NCBI GenBank assembly: GCA_913063165.1
Contig: CAJXZL010000001.1
Location: 124,001-188,000, forward strand
Source: an uncultured Saccharospirillaceae bacterium
GTDB lineage: Bacteria > Pseudomonadota > Gammaproteobacteria > Pseudomonadales > Natronospirillaceae
DNA length: 64,000 bases
Reading direction: 5' to 3'
The notes beneath the pieces are model-generated. The model did not search any database. It saw nothing but the letters and a program-made list of their open reading frames with translations, and was not told where the DNA came from. Shown here in pieces: positions 18,943 through 24,410 of this stretch (positions are counted from its first letter, which is position 1; every line of letters starts with the position of its first letter). A program made the position numbers and the translations under genes.

Positions 18943-20670
18943 ATGCAACCTAAAATCAAGTTGGTTCGCATGGCCGCCTTGGCTGTCGCGACCTGTCTGT
19001 CTTTACCCGTGGCTGCAGCCTCCGATTGCAACCAATCGCTTACACCCTTGTCACAGGTACAGGGCGTTAGTGATCGCTCACCTCTGCAAGGAGAAAGGCT
19101 ATGGGTGACAGGATTGGTCAGCGCGGTCTATCAGGAACCAAACAGCTTAAAGGGCTTTTTCTTGATCGCAGCTGAGGCCGACCAAGACAACGATCCGCGC
19201 ACCTCAGAAGGCTTGTTTGTCTACAGCCAACAACCGGTCTCTGTCGGGGAGTCGGTTGTGGTATCAGGGCAGGTCACCGAGTTTTACGGCCTTACCGAAC
19301 TGACGCATGTAAACCAGGTTATTGTCTGCTCCCGTCACAACACCTTGCCAAAGCCAACGCCAATAAGCAGCTTGCCGTATTCGGTTGGCTGGCAGGAATC
19401 GGTGGAATCCATGCCCGTTGTCACACCGCCGATGTGGGTATCAGGCAATGGGTCGTTGGCGCGCTATGGTGAACTGCATGTCGCCAGTGACAATGTGTTT
19501 GAACAGGCAGTGCAAGGCGCAGCTCCTAAACAACCGGTCAGTCACTGGGTCATTGACGATGCTGCCCCTGGCAATCAAGCACTGTGGTCATCCTATGTCG
19601 ATGCCGACAATGTCAGACTGGGTACTTCCATCCAACCCTTTACTGCCATCGCCAGTTTTGGTTTTGGCCAATACCGCCTGTTGCCCCAGACACCTATTGA
19701 CGCGCGCGCCCATCGACCAGACCACACAATGGCACCCGCATTTAACCCCGATGCAAACACCCGCATTGCACAATTGAATGTTCGGAACCTCTTTAACGGT
19801 GACGGACAGGGCGGTGGGTTCCCAACCTCTCGGGGAGCCAAGACTGTCGCCGAATACCGCCACCAACTGGCAAAACTGGCGCTCACTGTCCATACGTTTG
19901 ATGCCGACTTTGTCGCCCTGACGGAAATTGAAAATGATGGATACGGTAGCCACTCAGCCATCAGCGATCTACTGTCCGCAGTCAATCGACTGGGCGCCAA
20001 TGACGACCCCTTCGCTTTTGCGGCAGGTGCCAGTGAAGACAGTGGCAGCGATCAGATCACCCAAGGCTTGCTGTATAAAACCCGTGCATGGCAGGTAAAA
20101 CAGGTGGCTTTTTTGCCACTCACATCGCCAGGGGTATCGGCCAGACCCTCTCTCATGGGCGTATTTATGAATCAGCGAACAGGCAGTCACTTGCAGATCG
20201 CAGTCGTACACTACAAATCCCGACGCGCTGGCTGCGCTGAGGACCCCAAAGCAGAGCCCGCAGCCGGTTATTGTGATCAGCGTCGCATGGCGATAAGCCG
20301 CAACCTAATAAAAGCATTAGACAACACCGATGACTTTGATCCTGACATGCGCGTTATCGCTGGGGATTTTAACGCCTATTATGGCGAGCCAGCACTGCGT
20401 TTGTTGACCGATGCGGGTTGGCAGGAATCACGAGCACGGTTAAACCGCTTGCACGAATACACCTATGTATACCGCAACAAGCCGGGTGCCTTAGACCATT
20501 TCTTTGTGCGCTCGAACCCTACGAATTTACCAGACATGCAACAAGTCGATTGGCATATCAACGCTGCTGAATCCGATATCATTGTCGGGGAGGAATTGCA
20601 GAGAGGGCTGGTGTCGGTGTATCGGTCTTCAGATCACGACCCCAGCATTTTGGATCTCAACTGGCGTTAG
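18943..20670 (+). CDS. ExeM/NucH-like extracellular nuclease
   Basis: 575-residue secreted nuclease. A signal peptide is evident ([22 protein letters not shown], cleavage near AAA-S). An OB-fold-like segment follows ([31 protein letters not shown]). The C-terminal half is an endonuclease/exonuclease/phosphatase domain: [25 protein letters not shown], a long QLAVVHYKS-type strand ([14 protein letters not shown]), [15 protein letters not shown] and the final SSDHDPSIL. These match ExeM-type nucleases that degrade extracellular DNA, for nutrition or biofilm turnover. It is monocistronic, divergent from iscR, and its last 14 bp overlap the end of cysE. Confidence 0.88.
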
Positions 20671-21505
20671 GGGTTTTTTCAACAGCCGACGCAGACTCGA
20701 CTTCCAATCCGCCACAGGGCGCAGAAGTATTATCTGCCTCTTCTACTACGGTAAAGTCAGCGCCTTCCAAACCCTTGAACTTAAGGTATTTGAAATTCTT
20801 ATCGAGATGGCAGAGCACATCGCACATTTCATTCAAACGGGCATCTTGCTCATGTATGTGGGCGAGCATCTTGCGAATCGAATGGGCAATAGGATCGGGC
20901 ATCTCAGAGACACCATAGGCATCAAAACCCATTTTTTCGGCAATGACTTTCTGACGCTGCAGCTCATCCGGATCTAATTCAACGGGTGCTGTAGCGCCCT
21001 TGATTACACGCCCCGGCACACCAACCACAGTTGCGTCTGCCGCTACCTCTTTGGTCACAACGGCATTGGAGCCAATTCGGGCACCCGCGTGCACCGTAAA
21101 AGGGCCTAGCACCTTGGCGCCTGCACCCACAATCACACCATCTTCCAAGGTCGGATGGCGTTTGCCTTTCAACCAACTGGTGCCGCCAAGCGTGACGCCT
21201 TGATAGATGGTGACATCATTGCCAATTTCAGCAGTTTCACCGATGACCACACCCAAACCGTGGTCAATAAAGAACCGACGACCAATAACAGCACCGGGAT
21301 GTATTTCAATCCCCGTCACCCACCGCGCTATCAAGGACAACCAGCGTGCCAACCACCGAAAACCCCAGGTCCACAGTTTGTGGTTTACGCGGTGCATAAT
21401 CAGCGCATGCAGACCGGGATAACAGGTCAATACTTCAAACCAGTTTCTCGCAGCAGGGTCTCGATCGAAAACGCTGTTTATGTCTTCTCTAAGCTGTGTA
21501 AACAT
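20657..21505 (-). CDS. cysE: Serine O-acetyltransferase
   Basis: First step of cysteine synthesis, forming O-acetylserine. The left-handed beta-helix hexapeptide repeats are clear from about residue 65 ([25 protein letters not shown]) through [11 protein letters not shown]. The N-terminal [26 protein letters not shown] and [12 protein letters not shown] match the Pseudomonas-type short CysE. The ATG at 21505 has AAGGA nine bases upstream; the ATG at 21511 is too close to it. A tail of about 80 residues follows the helix, ending in a low-complexity acidic stretch. The gene follows trmJ immediately, as in many gammaproteobacteria where cysE precedes iscR. Confidence 0.93.
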
Positions 21506-21510
21506 GACCA

Positions 21511-22299
21511 TTAGTCCTTCAATTTTGCGCGCAATTTATCTACTTGCGTCAGAATACCACGCAAGATATTCATTTCAGAATTATCAGGTTGCACCCGCAT
21601 GTACAATCGTCGCAACCGCGTCATCAATAACTTAGGTTTATGGGGGTCAAGGTATTCAATATCAATAAGGGTCTTTTCTAAATGCTCAAAATACCCCGAC
21701 ATTTGTGCTTGATTGGCCGGTGGCGCCTCGCGCTCTGTGTCCCATTGGTAGTCAACACTGTCACCCAACATGGCCATACGCATTTCATAGGCCAACACCT
21801 GCACGGCAGCTGCAACATTCAAAGAACTGTATTCGGGGTTTGACGGGATGTGCACATGGTGGTGACACAGAGCCAATTCGCCGTTCGTAAGCCCACTGCG
21901 CTCTCGACCGAATACGATTGCGATTTCCACGTCATCTGATTGCTGTAACGACAAACTTGCCGCCTGTCTCGGATTCACCAGCGGCCAAGGAATGGCTCGA
22001 CTGCGCGCACTCGCACCAATCACCAACTGACAATCGGCAACAGCAGCCTCTAAACTGTCTGCCACAGACGCTTTCATCATAATGCCGTGCGCACCCGCCG
22101 CCCGTGCCATGGCGACATTGGTCATAAAGTCGGGTGGGTTGACCAACGACAGATGGGTTAAACCCATGGTTTTCATGGCCCGTGCCGCCGAACCGATATT
22201 GCCACTGAAAGACGGTTCTACCAACACGATGCGTATGCGATCTAAAAAGCTCAAGGATTGCCTCACTAAATAAAGGTCGGTGTCAGTAAAAGCTGCCAT
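21511..22299 (-). CDS. trmJ: tRNA (cytidine/uridine-2'-O-)-methyltransferase TrmJ
   Basis: SPOUT-class enzyme that 2'-O-methylates position 32 in tRNA. Core motifs are [26 protein letters not shown] at the N terminus, [11 protein letters not shown], and the knot region [23 protein letters not shown]. The start is uncertain: ATG 22299 is listed, but a TTG at 22254 with GAGG six bases upstream would give 247 residues, very near the 246 of E. coli TrmJ. The neighbours are cysE downstream and the suhB homologue divergent upstream, the arrangement seen in Pseudomonas. Confidence 0.92.
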
Positions 22300-22397
22300 T
22301 TTTGAGCCGTTATCAGACACCCTAAAGGGATTTTGGGGTATTTTACATGAAATCGGCTCCCTTGCCTGACTAATCTATTTTCTCACTAGGCTACTAA

Positions 22398-22432
22398 TTT
22401 GTGGCAATTTTTCGTAACATTGTCGCCACAAA
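22398..22432 (+). promoter_or_regulatory. Inverted repeat upstream of the suhB homologue
   Basis: TTTGTGGC and GCCACAAA form a perfect 8-bp inverted repeat with a 19-bp spacer. It ends 33 bp before the suhB-like ATG. It may be an operator or a leader RNA hairpin. No T-run follows. Confidence 0.4.
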
Positions 22433-22465
22433 CCGCTTTTTAACAAAACTGATACCTGGATTCCC

Positions 22466-23230
22466 ATGCAACCCACATTGACGATTGCTTTGCGGGCAGC
22501 ACGTGCTGCCGCCGAAAAACTGAAATTTCAATATGACCAAATGCCCGGTCAGATTGCCGAAGGCATGAGCGTTCAGGCTATTTTAGAAGCCGCTGTTCAA
22601 AGCGCATCCGACCAACTGATCAAGGCCATTCGTAAAGCACACCCTACCCACAACATCGACATCGTTGGCAAAGGTATGGACGAAGCCCGTACGCCTGATG
22701 CAGAAGTAATGTGGCGTGTACGCTTAATCGACAGTACTGCCAACTTCTTGGCGGGCTATCCCGCATTTATGGTCACCGTTGCTTTTTATCGACATGGTAA
22801 AATGGAACACATCGCTTTGGTGAATCCATTTACCGGTGGTGAATTTACAGCCACCCGTGGTCGCGGCATGCAATTTTTAGAAAAGCGCACCCGTACCAGC
22901 AATCAAAAGAAACTGCAAAAAGCCCTCGTTTCAACCTACAAGCCAGATTTCAACACGCCGTTCTTTGCTGTACTCAAAGAGCAGCAATGTGATGTGCGTC
23001 TGACTGGGTCATTCTTGACCGACCTCACCGCATGTTGTGGTGGCCAGACAGTCGCTTTTGTCGCCAACCAAGTGGATGAGCTCGATATCGAAGTGGCGTC
23101 TCTATTGGCTCAGGAATCAGGTGCGTTAACAGGTGACGCCAATGGCCGTCCTTTGTCGCTGAAGAGTAAGACTTTGGTGGTCGCGAACCCGAAACTGTTC
23201 AAATTGGTTATTCAGGCCCTGTCTGCTTAA
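22466..23230 (+). CDS. suhB: SuhB-like inositol monophosphatase homologue, catalytic residues lost
   Basis: 254-residue member of the inositol monophosphatase family, placed opposite trmJ-cysE exactly where suhB lies in Pseudomonas-like genomes. The fold is recognisable from the start (LTIALRAARAAAEKL), FTATRGRGMQFL and RLTGSFLTDL. The metal site is not intact. The usual WxIDPLDGTTNF reads WRVRLIDSTANF (residues 83-94), so the first Asp is Arg86. The usual TEES motif reads IVGK at 66-69, and PWDxAAG reads ELDIEVAS. It is therefore unlikely to hydrolyse phosphates. In E. coli, SuhB also acts as a Nus factor in rRNA antitermination, which may be the retained role here. Confidence 0.8.
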   Translation: MQPTLTIALRAARAAAEKLKFQYDQMPGQIAEGMSVQAILEAAVQSASDQLIKAIRKAHPTHNIDIVGKGMDEARTPDAEVMWRVRLIDSTANFLAGYPAFMVTVAFYRHGKMEHIALVNPFTGGEFTATRGRGMQFLEKRTRTSNQKKLQKALVSTYKPDFNTPFFAVLKEQQCDVRLTGSFLTDLTACCGGQTVAFVANQVDELDIEVASLLAQESGALTGDANGRPLSLKSKTLVVANPKLFKLVIQALSA

Positions 23231-23330
23231 TCAGAAGCAACACCGCATAACCACGCAGTTTGGATATGCGGTGTGACCCGACAGCATTAGGCTTCAACCG
23301 TTGTTCATCGACTATTACGGGTAGCACAAC

Positions 23331-24410
23331 ATGACACACAATCTGCAAATTCTTGCTGGCGAACGTGCTTTACAGCATATTCGAGAAAAGGGATTAAAGC
23401 CGGAACACATCTCCATGATGTTAGGCGCGTCAGGTGGACCTAAATGGTTCGTGCTATCACGTTTTGACCAATATCTTGGTCGCGAATTTCTAAGCCAAGC
23501 CACACAACCTATCAATTTGGTCGGATCCTCAATTGGCGCTATGCGTATGGCCTGCCACGCAATGGCCGCACCCGATAAAGCCATCCAACGGCTCGAAGAT
23601 GCCTACGTGGCATCGGCCTATGACCACACCACGACCCCCAAAGATGTCTCTGACAGTGCCGAGTACATGATCAAGCACTTCCTAGGCGAAACTGGCATTG
23701 AAGAAATCGTACATAACACCCAGTTTCACCTCAACGTTGTCGCGGCCCGCGCCAGAGGTTGGGGTGCCAGTGACACGCGTTTTAAGCAGTTGACGAGCGT
23801 ACTGGCCAGCGCGGCGACCAATATGGTGTCACGCCGGGCATTTTTGTCATTTTATGAGCGGGTGATATTTTCACAACAGGTACCCACCTCGCCATTTCGA
23901 GATTTGCGCGGGGTAAAGGGCCGTTTGTGCCAGCTATCCTCGGCCAATAGTTTACAGGCCTTAATGGCCTCTGGTGCCATTCCCTTGGTGTTAGAAGGTG
24001 TGCGTGACATACCAGGCGCACCACAGGGCACTTATCGCGATGGCGGTATGATTGATTACCATTTCGATCTACCGTTAGAAACCGCACCAGGCCTTATTTT
24101 ATACCCCCATTTTGCGCCTATGCTGAAGCCCGGCTGGTTTGATAAAAGCCTGCCTTGGCGCACGGTAAACAAGCGCAATTACACCGATGTTGTGCTCGTC
24201 ACGCCAACGCAATCATTTATTGATCGGCTACCCTATGGCAAGATTCCTGATCGGGGTGACTTTGAGAAATTGGAAACAGATGTGCGGCAGAAATATTGGC
24301 ACACTGCGATTGCGCAAGGACAGGCCATTGCCGACGACTTTGCTACATTAATCGACACCAACCGCATTGCTGAGATTGCCCAGCCGCTCGACCCTAAAGC
24401 CTTGGCTTAA
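23331..24410 (+). CDS. Patatin-like phospholipase
   Basis: 359-residue protein of the patatin lipase family, with a Ser-Asp dyad. The oxyanion loop is GASGGPKW, the nucleophile is in GSSIGAMR (GxSxG), and the partner Asp is in YRDGGMIDY (DGG). No signal peptide is evident, so it is probably cytoplasmic or delivered by a special route. It stands alone, 100 bp after the suhB homologue, and ends at a bidirectional terminator shared with secF. The substrate is unknown. Confidence 0.88.
   Translation: MTHNLQILAGERALQHIREKGLKPEHISMMLGASGGPKWFVLSRFDQYLGREFLSQATQPINLVGSSIGAMRMACHAMAAPDKAIQRLEDAYVASAYDHTTTPKDVSDSAEYMIKHFLGETGIEEIVHNTQFHLNVVAARARGWGASDTRFKQLTSVLASAATNMVSRRAFLSFYERVIFSQQVPTSPFRDLRGVKGRLCQLSSANSLQALMASGAIPLVLEGVRDIPGAPQGTYRDGGMIDYHFDLPLETAPGLILYPHFAPMLKPGWFDKSLPWRTVNKRNYTDVVLVTPTQSFIDRLPYGKIPDRGDFEKLETDVRQKYWHTAIAQGQAIADDFATLIDTNRIAEIAQPLDPKALA

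Follow-up and report, generated by a model that had tools for sequence, protein, structure and literature searches.

A SuhB orthologue with a broken metal site beside trmJ, probably kept as a Nus factor, and recurrent loss of SuhB catalytic residues in Pseudomonadales

SuhB of Escherichia coli is a Nus factor in rRNA antitermination, a role separate from its inositol phosphatase activity. The window analysed here (the whole stretch of 64,000 nucleotides) encodes a SuhB with a broken metal site, and its most economical reading from sequence is that of a pseudoenzyme probably kept as a Nus factor, to which we assign a probability of about three in four. We infer both the catalytic death of this protein and its action in rRNA transcription. 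The E. coli protein does have inositol-monophosphatase (IMPase) activity, and mutants of this one organism, described in PMC4807359, indicate that this activity is not the main reason why the cell needs SuhB.

The suhB frame runs uninterrupted from ATG to stop over 254 codons, as the initial annotation had described it, and its reported place beside trmJ and cysE was likewise confirmed:

22466..23230, + strand: degenerate suhB, 254 aa, PF00459 fold (open reading frame; Pfam PF00459; best PDB matches are SuhB)
21511..22320, − strand: trmJ, divergent neighbour marking the suhB place (same arrangement in E. coli K-12)
20657..21511, − strand: cysE, adjoining trmJ

Going outward from suhB, trmJ is followed by cysE, a nuclease-like gene, iscR and iscS in one direction, and in the other a gene with weak patatin similarity is followed by secF and secD. 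The divergent trmJ-suhB arrangement recurs in E. coli K-12, where the product is named Nus factor SuhB. No promoter-like site was found in 22200-23400, an absence that says little. The source genome is a 2.55 Mb assembly in 112 contigs. Two other genes of this region were noted. Between iscR and cysE, 18943-20670 (+) encodes 575 aa that include an endonuclease/exonuclease/phosphatase domain (PF03372); between suhB and secF, 23331-24410 (+) encodes 359 aa whose patatin match is weak (22.6 bits, not reaching the Pfam cut-off of 27.7).

By fold, best matches and place beside trmJ, the window gene is an orthologue of suhB. The protein scored 77 bits against Pfam PF00459 (cut-off 27) and matched the NCBIfam suhB equivalog NF008027 end to end, but with 103 bits it stayed under the curated cut-off of 332, a strict test since only 39 of 143 genomes sampled from the class pass it. 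Its best solved sequence matches are SuhB from P. aeruginosa (PDB 8wdq, 9j90), which is the best of them, and SuhB from E. coli (b2533; PDB 2qfl, 6ib7, 6ib8, 6tqn), to which it is identical at 71 of 267 positions. An AlphaFold2 model, computed from an alignment with 28 other proteins, reached a mean pLDDT of 95.3, and the first 13 Foldseek matches of this model were all SuhB structures, including 6tqn, the rrn antitermination complex. VIA-align, for which gaps in Z under 1 count as ties, superposed the model on E. coli 2qfl with Z 30.4 and rmsd 2.5 over 248 aligned residues, and on SuhB in the antitermination complex (6tqn_S) with Z 29.4 and rmsd 2.6 over 247. The E. coli protein shares with the window's the place by trmJ, the predicted fold and the lysine that contacts the NusA AR2 domain. 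The catalytic PF00459 proteins, CysQ among them, have the superfamily fold in common with the window's SuhB; unlike it, they keep an intact catalytic motif and do not adjoin trmJ.

Known IMPase structures assign the binding of metals, phosphate or the nucleophilic water to E67, D84, L86, D87, G88, T89 and D212, and PMC5516325 gives such roles for the corresponding HisN residues. Five of these positions, E67, D84, D87, T89 and D212, were scored as the catalytic set, in E. coli numbering checked on the K-12 sequence. Alignments placed the corresponding codons of the window as follows:

22664..22666, + strand: codon for Val67, which replaces the metal ligand Glu67
22721..22723, + strand: codon for Arg86, which replaces the metal ligand Asp84
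22730..22732, + strand: Asp89 codon, retained equivalent of Asp87
22736..22738, + strand: Thr91 codon, retained equivalent of Thr89
23084..23086, + strand: Asp207 codon, retained equivalent of Asp212; the preceding residue 206 is Leu at the Trp211 place

At L86 and G88 the window has Ile88 and Ser90, and at K34, D44, R184 and E205 it has Met, Val, Leu and Ala. E. coli SuhB keeps all five scored residues where the window has Val and Arg at E67 and D84, and P. aeruginosa SuhB, unlike the window's, retains the canonical D-x-x-D-x-T motif. The motif strings quoted in the initial annotation were found as given, with IVGK at the TEES place, WRVRLIDSTANF, in which Arg86 replaces the first Asp, and ELDIEVAS at the PWDxAAG place. 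Its statement that the catalytic metal site is lost stood at E67 and D84 and did not at D87, T89 and D212: as Asp89, Thr91 and Asp207 are still present, two of the four metal ligands of active IMPases (Glu67, Asp84, Asp87, Asp212) are gone and the site is broken at these two, not at every ligand. A positively charged arginine where an aspartate normally coordinates two metals would be expected to destroy the site, and without Glu67 and Asp84, the latter now Arg, the protein would no longer bind the catalytic Mg2+ ions; some metal binding, weak or altered, may persist, since the equivalents of D87, T89 and D212 remain. Two consecutive arginines followed by GSAAL (the RR-x-GSAAL stretch) are called typical of SuhB in PMC5516325; the window's protein has lost this stretch, with RLTGSFLTD in its place, and has lost R184 as well.

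Alignment with SuhB of relatives, as the initial annotation had proposed, revealed that the loss is family-wide and recurs in other families. A first search gave a match in 36 of 38 genomes, the window's own counted. In the window's family (f1, named here Saccharospirillaceae and kin; in NCBI taxonomy Saccharospirillaceae includes Reinekea and Saccharospirillum, and Natronospirillaceae includes Natronospirillum), all 22 genomes, including the window's own, have a full SuhB frame of 242-256 aa in the same place, with 0-3 of the five catalytic residues. For the order, 100 Pseudomonadales genomes were sampled non-randomly, 22 of them from f1 and one or more from other families, with extras chosen for odd scores. 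Eleven were left out of the count, one for a truncated gene (G031) and ten for want of trmJ in the stretch (G034, G036, G043, G072, G075, G091, G107, G189, G210, G240); no lost residue was seen in the ten of these that were read (all but G189), D212 being unreadable in G031. Among the remaining 89 trmJ-linked SuhBs, 50 retain 0-3 of the five residues and 39 retain all five, with none at four. The 50 degenerate proteins span ten families (f1 22, f44 8, f37 6, f36 3, f39 3, f6, f19 and f38 2 each, f14 and f26 1 each), and f39 and f44 also contain canonical genomes. In all 50, trmJ is divergent and at most 954 bases away; within the 89 this linkage gives no independent support, as it was the entry condition. 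In an alignment of named loci the motif was broken in five Motiliproteus, five Nitrincola (Oceanospirillaceae in NCBI taxonomy), one Neptunomonas MAG and one Oleiphilaceae MAG, and four further loci (L084, L085, L089, L095) were canonical at the positions read. As a side observation, the best matches of four small f14 genomes (G034, G075, G107 and G240; loci L171, L170, L169 and L173) look like other IMPases and are canonical; they may not be SuhB orthologues, since trmJ is absent from the surrounding stretches, and these genomes may lack SuhB or have one beyond recognition.

With this set we could ask whether the protein is still an enzyme, with another metal arrangement or another substrate, using Asp89, Thr91 and Asp207. 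The window's SuhB retains three of the five residues, the most of any degenerate one, Asp stands at the D212 place in 22 of the 50 degenerate proteins, and two replacements recur: Arg at position 67 in 16 of the 50 from six families (f1, f26, f36, f37, f38, f44), and Glu at position 89 in 18 of the 50 from three families. Against an enzyme of this kind, the five-residue signature varies between and within families, with 15 signatures in f1 and no replacement fixed in all; the recurrence of Arg67 and Glu89 makes a shared history or a shared pressure possible, though signatures differ between families. In canonical SuhB, 88 positions are conserved to 90% or more (family-weighted). Of the 12 among them that we take to form the active site, 11 were retained in under half of the degenerate set, versus 25 of the 76 others (Fisher P = 1.6e-4, the positions not being independent); R184, one of the 76, was retained in none. 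We therefore regard a surviving enzymatic function as unlikely.

Another reading is that suhB is dispensable in f1 and its frame is on the way out. The high divergence of the window's SuhB, at 29-44% identity to the 21 others of f1, would agree with such decay, and so would the rates in close pairs, estimated as dN/dS by the Nei-Gojobori method for pairs with dS <1, which are not independent of each other. The window's own suhB has no pair with dS <1, so that the rates come from relatives. For degenerate suhB, 14 of 15 pairs lay at dN/dS 0.011-0.316, the outlier being G003/G006 with 0.752 at a dS near saturation (0.995), and for canonical suhB 13 pairs gave 0-0.178. The ratio for trmJ ranged overall from 0.022 to 0.343 and was below that of suhB in 12 of the 15 degenerate pairs, so suhB is genuinely constrained, though less tightly than trmJ, which would be consistent with a partial relaxation of selection. 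Decay is contradicted by the intact frame in the same place in 22 of 22 genomes, by ratios as low as 0.019 (G010/G021) and 0.011 (G020/G018), and by the fixation of Trp81 (50/50 degenerate, 39/39 canonical) and of Arg141, and it appears very improbable. Neither a broken frame nor a neutral rate, the marks of a pseudogene, was found, the rate being judged on relatives and not on the window's own gene. The view that the gene is selected and not decayed is upheld by the clade-wide intact frames and by dN/dS ratios no higher than 0.32 in all but one of the 15 degenerate pairs. Pseudogene formation or sequencing error as a source of the broken motif was ruled out separately, because all 22 f1 genomes agree.

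Two residues of the contact between E. coli SuhB and NusA have equivalents near the C-terminus of the window's protein:

23201..23203, + strand: Lys246 codon, equivalent of Lys251, a NusA-AR2 contact residue in E. coli SuhB (alignments; contact from PMC6614801)
23210..23212, + strand: Ile249 codon, matching Leu254 in the same contact (alignment; same source)

Lys246 is thus identical and Ile249 a conservative change for Leu254. According to PMC6614801, exchanging both K251 and L254 for Ala in the E. coli protein raises the Kd for NusA-AR2 from 94 nM to 141 uM, a cut in affinity of more than 1000-fold. Position 251 is Lys in 43 and Arg in 5 of the 50 degenerate SuhBs, with one Met and one Gln, and position 254 is Leu in 20, Val in 17, Ile in 6, Phe and Met in 3 each and Thr in 1, that is, other than Leu in 30 of the 50. 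On the partner's side, the NusA C-terminal repeat TIGR01954 gave two matches in each of the 22 f1 genomes. A search of six genomes detected 16S in three of them, all relatives, whose rRNA operon leaders were scored against what we take to be the boxA consensus. In 11 operons of these three relatives, boxA-like 12-mers with 9-11 of 12 matches lie 174-222 bases upstream of 16S; 9 of the 11 were equalled by at most 7 of 300 shuffles, and the other 2 are within chance. 16S was not found in the window's genome, G013 or G021, by a search that was positive in only 9 of 14 control genomes.

The retained lysine and the NusA repeats also bear on whether SuhB serves as a scaffold outside rRNA antitermination, for instance bound to ribosomes or in regulation. 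According to PMC4807359, suhB mutants of Pseudomonas and Burkholderia alter the expression of many genes; Leu254 is relaxed, and which partner has been kept cannot be told from sequence. Against such a role, Lys251, one half of the double change that cuts AR2 affinity in E. coli, is Lys or Arg in 48 of 50 degenerate proteins, and the C-terminal repeats of NusA are retained, which leaves another scaffold role quite unlikely. As a Nus factor, the window's protein would fold as an inositol-monophosphatase-type subunit, its face around Lys246 and Ile249 would bind the AR2 domain of NusA, and SuhB would help NusB and NusE to join the rRNA transcription complex. If this is confirmed, the surviving residues would mark surfaces that the antitermination complex needs, free of catalytic constraint, and for many Pseudomonadales the label "inositol monophosphatase" would be a misannotation.

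We were also interested in whether the lost activity is supplied from elsewhere. In the window's genome the only other PF00459 protein over the cut-off is CysQ (TIGR01331, 285 bits versus 228.8). No second SuhB-type gene was found there, two further PF00459 matches at E 0.17-0.18 being below the cut-off. The initial annotation had named a second intact suhB together with a relaxed rate as evidence against itself: the former was thus not found in the window's genome, and a suhB rate above that of trmJ was seen in 12 of the 15 pairs of relatives. Exactly one other PF00459 match at E <=0.001 occurs in 7 of the 22 f1 genomes, the window's included. In the relatives one other PF00459 locus per genome was read and not every match, giving 21 loci, of which L102 (G004) and L120 (G008) yielded no usable frame and L215 yielded a fragment. 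On this basis at least 11 of the 22 f1 genomes have another intact full-length IMPase, ten of one type and G006 of another. The ten-genome type (L100, L101, L103-L110) is catalytically intact and has an RR-x-G-S/A-A stretch close to the SuhB-typical one. These second IMPases lie away from the trmJ place, and their C-terminal ends, compared by eye, seem to be without the contact lysine; the NF008027 scores of the three that were scanned (G002 184, G015 163 and G006 166 bits) are below 332 and above the 103 of the window's SuhB. The second protein of G010 is nearest to CysQ (224.9 versus the cut-off of 228.8). Another IMPase could therefore supply the activity in about half of f1. It is not replaced everywhere, because the window's genome has only CysQ besides over the cut-off and in G068 (f6, 4.8 Mb, estimated 100% complete) the degenerate SuhB is the only PF00459 match. 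Whole bacterial groups thus seem to run on a SuhB with a broken active site, with one genome of estimated full completeness showing no other member of the enzyme family. The earlier suggestion that only the structural role may remain is supported by the SuhB fold, the contact lysine, the NusA repeats and the absence of a second SuhB-type gene from the matches in the window's genome; the other intact IMPase of at least 11 relatives points the other way. The occurrence of similar losses in related families suggests that what counts about SuhB is its part in ribosome building.

How often this happened was estimated from a tree of 76 genomes, built on as many as six neighbouring proteins and rooted with E. 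coli. With losses treated as irreversible, five are needed (4-8 over 24 resampled trees), one of which reflects the stray placing of G093 apart from its family (f37). The tree has several weak deep nodes (the join of f19 and f36 has a support of 0.07) and drops 13 genomes with <450 columns, including the complete set of eight degenerate f44 genomes as well as f26 and f14, where losses are uncounted. We lean slightly towards the view that a catalytically dead SuhB, dedicated to rRNA transcription, arose on several occasions within Pseudomonadales and on two or more further occasions elsewhere in Gammaproteobacteria. Under this view the catalytic residues were lost by a different route in each lineage, and the fold, the location by trmJ and the NusA-facing lysine were retained. 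If this is true, SuhB would be a bifunctional protein repeatedly resolved toward its moonlighting role, and a natural experiment that separates its two jobs. Among the titles listed by a literature search, whose coverage left out most subscription journals, none concerned such a loss in SuhB, which does not prove novelty.

The cases beyond the order come from a survey of 143 Gammaproteobacteria, of which 141 are outside the window's order and each represents a different numbered family. The suhB model matched in 138 of the 143 at E 1e-19 or better, 39 being above its cut-off. Of 18 low-scoring or unmatched genomes followed up, 16 were matched and read, seven of these with trmJ in the stretch; among the remaining 125, G000 and G055 were read separately and 123 were judged by score alone. 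Catalytic loss of SuhB looks rare outside Pseudomonadales, in a score screen that a degenerate SuhB behind a better-scoring paralogue would escape. Two genomes outside the order, G323 (L300) and G442 (L299), one of them 1.1 Mb in size, have a trmJ-linked SuhB with a broken motif, and in G359 the motif is broken in one of three copies read, which has no trmJ in its stretch.
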